Below, one piece after another: positions 13,735 through 14,263 of a DNA stretch of 49,050 bases. The translations under genes were made by a program, and so were the position numbers. Where the stretch lies: NCBI RefSeq assembly GCF_002729955.1, contig NZ_PBYA01000022.1:1-49050 (forward strand). The letters are read 5' to 3'. The stretch is from Salinisphaera sp. (GTDB taxonomy: Bacteria > Pseudomonadota > Gammaproteobacteria > Nevskiales > Salinisphaeraceae). The first letter of the stretch is position 1; each line of letters starts with the position of its first letter. The notes under the pieces were generated by a model that did not search any database, was not told the origin of the DNA, and worked only from the letters and a program-made list of their open reading frames with translations.

Positions 13735-13825
13735 TGGCGGAGAGGGAGGGATTCGAACCCTCGGTACGGGGTTACCGCACACACGCTTTCCAGGCGTGCT
13801 CCTTCGACCGCTCGGACACCTCTCC
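13735..13825 (-). tRNA. tRNA-Ser (anticodon GGA)
   Basis: A complete class II tRNA of 91 nt including the encoded CCA. The acceptor GGAGAGG pairs with CCTCTCC. The anticodon arm CACGC-CTGGAAA-GCGTG gives GGA, reading UCC and UCU. The long variable arm (CGGTA...TACCG) is typical of tRNA-Ser, and the T arm carries GGTTCGAATCC. Upstream on its strand are a TACAAT -10 box and a terminator belonging to the preceding unit. Confidence 0.97.
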
Positions 13826-13839
13826 GTTACGGGCTGCGC

Positions 13840-13845
13840 ATTGTA
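13840..13845 (-). promoter_or_regulatory. -10 box of tRNA-Ser
   Basis: On the minus strand TACAAT lies 14 bp upstream of the tRNA 5' end. The same TACAAT occurs before the first tRNA-like unit (14065-14070) and a variant CACAAT before the second, so the promoter was copied with the units. No good -35 hexamer is visible at standard spacing. Confidence 0.55.
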
Positions 13846-13848
13846 TCG

Positions 13849-13871
13849 TAAAAACAGCCCTTACGGGCTGT
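13849..13871 (-). terminator. Rho-independent terminator after the first tRNA-Ser-like unit
   Basis: On the minus strand ACAGCCC-GTAA-GGGCTGT is a perfect 7-bp hairpin followed by TTTT. It begins right at the 3' end of the unit 13872-14051 and separates it from tRNA-Ser. A decayed version of the same hairpin (about 14075-14095) follows the second unit. Confidence 0.8.
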
Positions 13872-14051
13872 CGGAGAGGGAGGGATTGTTGAAGCTCGCT
13901 GTTTGCGATCTTCAATCCTGGCGGACTCACATGCTTCGCATGTTCGCGTCAGCTGCGGTGCAGCTGGTCGAACCCTCGGTATGGGCCTCGATTATTGAAG
14001 GCGCACACACGCTTTCCAAGCGTGCTCCTTCGACCGCTCGGACACCTCTCC
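13872..14051 (-). pseudogene. tRNA-Ser-like unit 1 with an insertion in the T loop
   Basis: This 180-nt unit copies the tRNA-Ser acceptor, D arm and anticodon arm almost exactly, still with anticodon GGA. About 81 bp (13887-13967) split the T loop between GGGTTCGA and ATCCC. The acceptor still pairs perfectly (GGAGAGG/CCTCTCC), but the 3' end reads ACA instead of CCA. The variable arm is replaced by a sequence ending AATAATCGAGGC. The insert folds into hairpins: CAGCTGC/GCAGCTG, ACATGC/GCATGT and TTGAAG/CTTCAA. It keeps a -10 box and a perfect terminator, so it may be transcribed. It could be a dead tRNA copy or a derived structured RNA. It is not a protein gene, although spurious frames run through it. 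Confidence 0.75.
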
Positions 14052-14095
14052 GTTACGGCTGCGCATTGTATCGTAAAAAGAGCCCTTACGGGTGT

Positions 14096-14263
14096 CGGAG
14101 CGGGAGGGATTGTTCGCGATCTTCAATCCTGGCGGACTCACATGCGAAGCATGTTCGCGTGGGCTGCGACGCAGCGGGTCGAACCCTCGGCACGGGCCTC
14201 GATTATTGAAGGCGCACACACGCTTTCCAGGCGTGCTCCTTCGACCGCTCGGACACCTCTTCC
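14096..14263 (-). pseudogene. tRNA-Ser-like unit 2 with an insertion in the T loop
   Basis: A second 168-nt copy of the same altered tRNA-Ser, with anticodon GGA, the same replaced variable arm and a 68-bp insert (14111-14178) at the same point of the T loop. The acceptor has decayed: the 5' side has an extra A (GGAAGAGG) and the 3' side reads CCGCTCC, so pairing is poor. The ACATGC/GCATGT hairpin and the GCTGC/GCAGC stem core persist with different loop bases. Its terminator is degraded. It looks like an older or non-functional sibling of the unit at 13872-14051. Confidence 0.7.

Follow-up and report, generated by a model that had tools for sequence, protein, structure and literature searches.

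Tandem upstream copies of tRNA-Ser(GGA) in Salinisphaera carry a T-loop insert that looks like the core of a tRNA-linked repeat

Introduction

What is the sequence that interrupts the T loop of two copies of a tRNA-Ser gene in Salinisphaera sp., and could the copies act as RNAs? The locus lies in a stretch of 49,050 nucleotides (contig NZ_PBYA01000022.1), which is called the window here. The original prediction had suggested a transcribed tRNA-like regulator or a spliced or processed tRNA, and a likeness to tRNA-linked repeats (TLRs; Rfam RtT) was absent from that reading.

The TLRs have been known since 1978, and those located in tRNA operons were described in 2021 as having no known function (PMC8144298). 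They follow a tRNA or rRNA and carry only its 3' end, the 3' end of each unit being 18-19 bp identical to that of the linked RNA (PMC8144298). A starvation phenotype once attributed to the tyrT TLR was subsequently withdrawn (PMC8144298), and a stringent-response effect is still cited in PMC4986893. In Escherichia coli, the RrB is a TLR after 5S rRNA that is transcribed and processed; three rrn TLRs are transcribed, processed and bound in vitro by Hfq and CsrA, and the authors suggested that RNase E recognises the repeated 3' end (PMC8144298). In Actinobacillus pleuropneumoniae, Northern signals were reported for two RtT RNAs upstream of tRNA genes (PMC4986893).

Results

The tRNA-Ser(GGA) locus

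The intact tRNA-Ser(GGA) gene and two upstream copies of 180 and 168 nt with a T-loop insert, as originally described, were confirmed. The elements of the locus are as follows.

13735..13825, minus strand: intact tRNA-Ser(GGA) gene, CCA encoded (ARAGORN; Rfam tRNA, 56.7 bits)
13840..13845, minus strand: -10-like box TACAAT, 5' of the intact gene (by eye)
13854..13871, minus strand: hairpin at the CCA position, right after G73 of copy 1, then TTTT (tail fold)
13872..14051, minus strand: copy 1, 180 nt, a whole tRNA-Ser(GGA) with T-loop insert and longer variable arm, without CCA
14065..14070, minus strand: -10-like box TACAAT, 5' of copy 1 (by eye)
14096..14263, minus strand: copy 2, 168 nt, in the format of copy 1, decayed

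The two copies are 92% identical over 150 aligned nt, and in both the variable arm is longer than in the intact gene. The acceptor, D and anticodon stems, which had been taken as kept in both, are complete in copy 1 (7/7, 3/3 and 5/5 pairs, with 5/5 in the T stem), and copy 2 is damaged, with 5/7 acceptor pairs. Copy 1 folds at -81.2 kcal/mol (z -6.0), which none of 200 shuffles equalled, while the fold of copy 2 (z -1.25) was equalled by 19 of 200. The encoded CCA of the intact gene is absent from both copies; the 3' end of copy 1 is AATCCCTCCCTCTCCG (16 nt matched), followed by ACA where the intact gene has CCA. The Rfam search also returned sX4 over the intact tRNA and its flanks, at 19-30 bits against a cut-off of 70, and this candidate was dropped.

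The signals of transcription stood up only in part. The -10 box of copy 1 can be read by eye as TACAAT, CACAAT occupies the corresponding position of copy 2 (by eye), and TACAAT lies 3' of every copy displayed (9/9; window copy 1 and other genomes); the promoter scan called no -35/-10 pair at the -10-like boxes of the locus. The terminator claimed for copy 1 is visible by eye as a 7-bp hairpin and TTTT, and stretches resembling the hairpin after G73 also lie 3' of related copies (by eye); the terminator scan called nothing by its rule near the copies. A run of at least five T follows 1 of 8 copies from other genomes (L004), and the terminator is therefore not a conserved feature.

The neighbourhood of the locus differs between genomes. 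In the window (10792-13189), about 2.8 kb separate the small SRP RNA from tRNA-Ser, and between them is a 722-aa ORF (11021-13189) that presumably encodes a GGDEF/EAL protein; in five other loci (L002, L003, L005, L006, L007), the distance is only 15-54 nt.

Conservation within the genus

A DNA search covered 41 genomes and, in addition, 14 genomes of the genus. Insert-bearing copies at the tRNA-Ser locus were present in 7 of the 14 Salinisphaera genomes, namely G000 (the genome of the window, whose locus is L001), G001, G005 (Salinisphaera hydrothermalis C41B8), G006, G007, G012 and G013, and in four (G002, G003, G008, G011) the intact gene was the sole match. G004 and G010 gave no match at E<=0.001, intact gene included, and G009 gave a 28-nt match 16 nt from a contig end; these were counted as uninformative. 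No place other than the tRNA-Ser locus was found for the Ser insert by this search; in G013 it lies on two contig ends. One half of what had been named in advance as speaking against the prediction, a lack of conservation in related genomes, is thus contradicted, because the insert is structured and conserved in relatives. A scan of contigs with an unspecific pattern, whose loci were checked for a nearby tRNA or TTCGACC, found the element only in L189 (S. hydrothermalis C41B8) among the 118 matches listed.

All counted pairs of the tRNA body are kept in 4/9 copies (window copy 1, both G005 copies and the G013 copy), and the G006 copy is decayed, like window copy 2. Unpaired positions occur in the anticodon or T stem of three of nine copies (L002, L003, L004), TTCGA is altered in three (L003, L004, L005, the last also with one T-stem mismatch), and the variable arm is changed in six. 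The CCA is absent in all ten copies examined at their 3' end, where enzymatic addition could still supply it. The G013 copies and the G013 intact gene have the same species-specific change in the anticodon stem, which points to gene conversion.

Two variants of the locus were seen in the genus. In G005 (L006, 1586-1739 and 1877-2030), each Ser copy holds two tandem cores, the second of which has a different first hairpin. In G003 (L010), two tandem promoter-like stretches lie 5' of the single tRNA-Ser (by eye), perhaps as a relic of lost copies.

Structure of the insert

The T loop of both copies is broken after TTCGA, and 80 or 67 nt follow until AATCCC. The same point of insertion had been predicted with sizes of 81 and 68 nt, which hold if one shared A is counted. 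The hairpins are listed below with the share of their pairs that are changed on both sides among nine inserts.

13888..13967, minus strand: T-loop insert of copy 1, 80 nt, four hairpins
13950..13966, minus strand: hairpin a (CAGCTGC/GCAGCTG), 2/7 pairs
13926..13946, minus strand: hairpin b, with flanks CGA...GAG, 3/7 pairs
13916..13925, minus strand: hairpin c (TCC-GCCA-GGA; by eye), 0/3 pairs
13889..13915, minus strand: hairpin d, 3/10 pairs
14112..14178, minus strand: T-loop insert of copy 2, 67 nt, last hairpin incomplete

Copy 1 therefore has what defines a TLR in this respect, a core of several hairpins between the two halves of the T arm, with four hairpins between TTCGA and AATCC. The insert of copy 2 is 13 nt shorter and its last hairpin lacks the 3' strand, so the consecutive hairpins predicted for both inserts hold for copy 1, and for copy 2, with its poor fold, only in part. 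The flanks of hairpin b probably form tandem G.A pairs.

An alignment of nine Ser inserts (A4; both window copies and other Salinisphaera) was compared with shuffled alignments under the four-hairpin structure of 27 pairs. In A4, 94.2% of cells are paired against a shuffled mean of 86.0 (0/500 shuffles as high), 8 of the 27 pairs are changed on both sides (6/500 as high), and 22 cells are changed on both sides against 6.3 in shuffles (0/500 as high). The measure of further pair types shows no excess (14 against 15.7; 470/500 shuffles as high), hairpin c is partly misaligned and supplies no support, and slid controls favour the structure because it was drawn on these same sequences. The hairpins of the Ser inserts carry compensating changes.

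Relation to tRNA-linked repeats

Among the known kinds, the Ser inserts look most like TLRs. In the E. coli TLR (Rfam RtT RF00391, rttR) as in the window, GGTTCGA of the T arm precedes the hairpin core, AATCC and the tRNA 3' end close it, and the units stand in tandem. The Rfam RtT model was above its cut-off in 10 of the 41 genomes, and the ten matches fetched lie after tRNA-Tyr (nine) and tRNA-Gln (one). In the window locus, the Rfam search gave no RtT match at E<=10, and the best RtT match elsewhere in G000, at 44.6 bits, falls short of the gathering score of 45. In the same genome, repeated tRNA 3' ends stand behind Arg(CCG), Val(GAC), Arg(CCT) and Gln(TTG) and behind an Arg-like tRNA sequence in C9 that is not among the ARAGORN calls; Tyr(GTA) is followed by a core whose 3' end has decayed.

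For a model of the TLR core, 36 cores linked to Arg, Gln or Tyr tRNAs were aligned (alignment A1), with no Ser sequence among them. Cores were required to contain TTCGAC and no N and to be at least 70 nt long, which excludes, among others, the L100 core and the Ser(TGA) cores of L101 in G015; A1 takes 36 of the 37 cores that pass, one duplicate unit of L033 being left out. In A1, 93.2% of cells are paired against 74.2 in shuffles, 20 of 32 pairs are changed on both sides, and the covariation score is 0.472 against 0.152. Columns 70 and 93 co-vary (TA 22, CG 13, TG 1; n=36) and adjoin positions that are G/A in 36/36 and A/G in 34/36 cores, which suggests that tandem G.A pairs extend helix d of the TLR cores; the equivalent columns of cores from the class read CG 17, TA 10, TG 1 and AA 1 in the 29 of 60 that could be parsed.

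Three covariance-type models were used: R1 was made from A1 with the T arm included, R2 is R1 without the T arm, and R3 was made from the Ser inserts without the T arm. In E. coli, R1, whose cores come from this order, matched four tyrT/tyrV units at 57.9-64.0 bits, and it therefore describes TLR/RtT. Over 69.7 kb, the best 11 matches of R1 all fall at Ser-linked elements, nine being the inserts of Ser copies and two being repeats 3' of tRNA-Ser in G015. Window copy 1 (13878-13976) scored 18.2 bits (E 0.01) and copy 2 (14102-14187) 16.7 bits (E 0.027), the latter with a margin of just 0.6 bits over the best other match at 16.1. With R2, the Ser inserts were not above background (copy 1 at 12.5 bits, against 17.2 at another place in the window), while the G015 repeats were matched at 29.9 and 27.4 bits; part of the R1 score is therefore the shared T arm.

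In the reverse direction, R3 was run on 38 other loci, where 9 of the 30 best matches start within 1 nt of a TLR core start on the right strand; about 0.02 would be expected by chance (33 core starts x 3 positions / 182,434 strand positions), an estimate that controls only partly for hairpin-rich, GC-rich composition. Among the other 21, three overlap a core out of register, five lie on the opposite strand and 13 touch no listed core, these 13 including ranks 2, 3, 4 and 6. Matches of R3 in E. coli and 12 loci of the class were weak (best E 0.035). Over 85 genomes of the order, R3 at E<=0.01 was confined to eight, namely seven Salinisphaera and a borderline G020, and its borderline places outside the tRNA-Ser locus were one in G013 and one in G020 (E about 0.005). 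A profile built on the sequence of the Ser inserts alone reached no better than E 0.39, its best three matches falling inside TLR-like stretches. The G.A-flanked hairpin of the Ser inserts sits elsewhere than in typical TLR cores.

Several loci showed arrangements of their own. In the repeats after tRNA-Val(GAC) of G000 (L043, 1040-1102 and 1214-1277), R3 matched the strand opposite the tRNA, as if the core were inverted. In TLR units after Arg tRNAs (L041, L061, L046), the reverse complement of the unit's own T arm (e.g. TTCGAACCTGCGAC) was seen by eye 5' of GGTTCGA, and alternative pairing is therefore possible there. Degenerate partial copies of tRNA-Gln(TTG) lie 5' of the intact gene in G000 (L059, 5763-5852 and upstream), and ARAGORN calls one of these copies a tRNA. 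In G015 (L013), tRNA-Ser(GGA) has tandem upstream copies of its 5' half with a different insert, and TLR-like repeats downstream.

Whole-tRNA copies elsewhere in the class

At E<=1e-4, R1 matched 66 of 185 genomes of the class, and at E<=1e-3 all 17 genomes of the family. From the class, 60 matches in 52 genomes were picked by hand among the score-sorted matches listed. A tRNA on the same strand was present in the fetched stretch of 54 of the 60 and in none of the other six. Only the T arm was found in 49 of the 54; 42 of these agree with a tRNA 3' end over 17 nt with two mismatches or fewer and lie, without exception, downstream of that tRNA, and the tRNA link of the other seven, with more mismatches, is less sure.

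The remaining five matches have a full-length tRNA copy with a core, and all five lie upstream of the intact gene. Their hosts are Ser(CGA) (L231), Gln(TTG) (L233), Arg(CCT) (L267) and Ser(TGA) (L283 and L286). L231 and L233 were chosen before the format was noticed and L267 is the sole match of its genome; L283 and L286 are extra G205/G209 matches picked afterwards, and 5/60 is therefore not an unbiased rate. Copy identity is 0.76 in L283 (limit 0.75) and 0.95-1.0 in the other four, against at most 0.49 in the T-arm-only cases. L233 has three tandem copies with a hairpin at the CCA position, as in the window. In L286 (G209), the tRNA-Ser(TGA) copy has two cores (642-712 and 766-843), each right after TCGA: the D-loop core follows GGTCGA and scores 32.3 bits with R2 (E 1.1e-5), and the T-loop core scores 40.5 bits with the same model.

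The copies of G209, G205 and G198 are like those of the window in being full-length, 5' of an intact gene and with the core after TTCGA, and unlike them in their host tRNAs, which are Ser(CGA), Ser(TGA), Gln(TTG) and Arg(CCT). The T-loop cores of these copies score 40-49 bits with R2, a model that the Ser(GGA) inserts do not match.

Discussion

The reading that we prefer, with a probability of roughly 0.7, is that the locus consists of tandem duplicates of a promoter and tRNA-Ser(GGA) with a four-hairpin core of the TLR/RtT type in the T loop. The feature is real and conserved, and it is a TLR variant with the core inside whole tRNA copies; it is not a canonical TLR, because its location and its Rfam score, when tested, were not those of one. 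The anatomy, its conservation in half of the genus, the compensating changes and the recurrence of the format at other tRNAs were directly observed. While TLR cores after tRNAs are already known, a core in whole, upstream tRNA copies with tRNA-type -10 boxes is unusual, and literature searches, judged mostly from titles and abstract openings, found no paper that describes TLR cores in the T loop of whole tRNA copies.

In favour of this assignment are the conserved locus (7/14), the changes in A4, the top 11 matches of R1, the register of R3, the five copies of the same format among 60 and the processing of RrB. Against it stand the background score with R2, the 0.6-bit margin of copy 2, the missing RtT match, the weak R3 matches in E. 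coli and the class loci, the position of the G.A-flanked hairpin and the four genomes that have only the intact gene. Furthermore, the described TLRs lie downstream and carry only the 3' end of the tRNA (PMC8144298), whereas the copies in the window are whole, stand upstream of the intact gene, lack CCA and have a -10-like box in front. The RrA, RrB and RrF sRNAs of the E. coli rrn operons are likewise RNAs of the TLR family flanked by a repeat of a stable RNA's 3' end, yet they are made by read-through of rRNA operons and bound in vitro by Hfq and CsrA (PMC8144298).

Under the TLR-type reading, the unit of promoter and tRNA-Ser(GGA) would have been duplicated in tandem twice, with the core directly after TTCGA, so that the T stem would close the core. 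By analogy, a transcript is expected from each copy: a tRNA-type promoter of its own would drive each unit, giving an RNA of about 180 nt in which a tRNA body and the core are both folded, and copy 1 is possibly such a tRNA-like RNA. RNase P might then trim the 5' end, and an endonuclease such as RNase E might act on the 3' side. With its T loop interrupted and CCA absent, the RNA would take no part in translation. A selected role, as an sRNA or as a decoy for tRNA enzymes, is tentatively put at a little under even odds, and use of the RNA seems about as likely as mere tolerance.

The closest competitor, judged slightly less probable than a selected role, has the same anatomy and overlapping odds: the copies would be a tolerated repeat with no cellular role, tandem tRNA duplicates made pseudogenes by a palindromic (REP/BIME-like) element and kept alike by gene conversion. 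The original argument that pseudogenes would not share an insert is weak, because tandem duplication copies the insert along. The intact gene stands as the sole match in 4/14 genomes, copy 2 lacks a hairpin arm, its decay and that of the G006 copy fit a dispensable repeat, and the G013 copies share the anticodon stem of their intact gene, as gene conversion would give. Compensating changes in both the Ser inserts and the TLR cores argue the other way, as does the fact that gene conversion from the intact gene cannot maintain an insert. BIME and REP palindromes are dispersed in genomes, whereas the DNA search puts the Ser insert at the tRNA-Ser locus only. The inserts resemble BIMEs as clusters of palindromes; rtT-like elements have been placed among the BIMEs in Enterobacteria (PMC2965389), and rttR is listed as containing a REP (PMC12306157).

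A further proposal concerns origin and is compatible with the TLR-type reading. It holds, with perhaps one chance in four, that TLR cores move as a module and insert into tRNA genes at a specific site after TCGA. The 3' ends of the units match the host tRNA (the 42 of 49 above), GTTCGA starts 52 of the 60 sampled cores (a start that R1, which found them, favours), and L286 has both a D-loop and a T-loop core right after TCGA. Such a junction, host-specific 3' ends and a D-loop case are traces that site-directed insertion would leave; the first two are also explicable by plain recombination via the common T-arm sequence, and the D-loop case is single. No enzyme was found. A Y1 transposase (E<=1e-8) is present in 45/66 core-bearing genomes against 61/119 others (odds ratio 2.0; Fisher p 0.03, genome size and kinship ignored), a weak co-occurrence, and, at a looser limit, in each of ten chosen core-bearing genomes; 21/66 core-bearing genomes have no Y1 match, and a link to a RAYT is unsupported. 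Extended to the whole class, the idea becomes somewhat less likely still: TLR cores would be one mobile RNA module entering after TCGA of the T loop, rarely the D loop, with whole copies as primary insertion products and downstream TLRs as truncated descendants. Among the matches listed from searches of phages and plasmids, which in one of the two were 20 of 38 records, query coverage was at most 22%.

Splicing of a T-loop intron to give a second tRNA-Ser, as originally entertained, is very improbable: the T loop without insert would have at most one extra A, and copy 1, the two G005 copies and the G013 copy retain all counted stem pairs, but CCA is absent in 10/10 copies, the other copies have stem mismatches, TTCGA is altered in 3/9 and the variable arm in 6/9, and no intron family is among the Rfam matches at E<=10. 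An intron or ribozyme suggested by a hammerhead-like string seen by eye was likewise rejected, no such family being among those matches.

That cores recur inside whole copies of several tRNAs suggests a way in which TLRs may arise. The core model, backed by covariation, is usable to find TLRs in many genomes.
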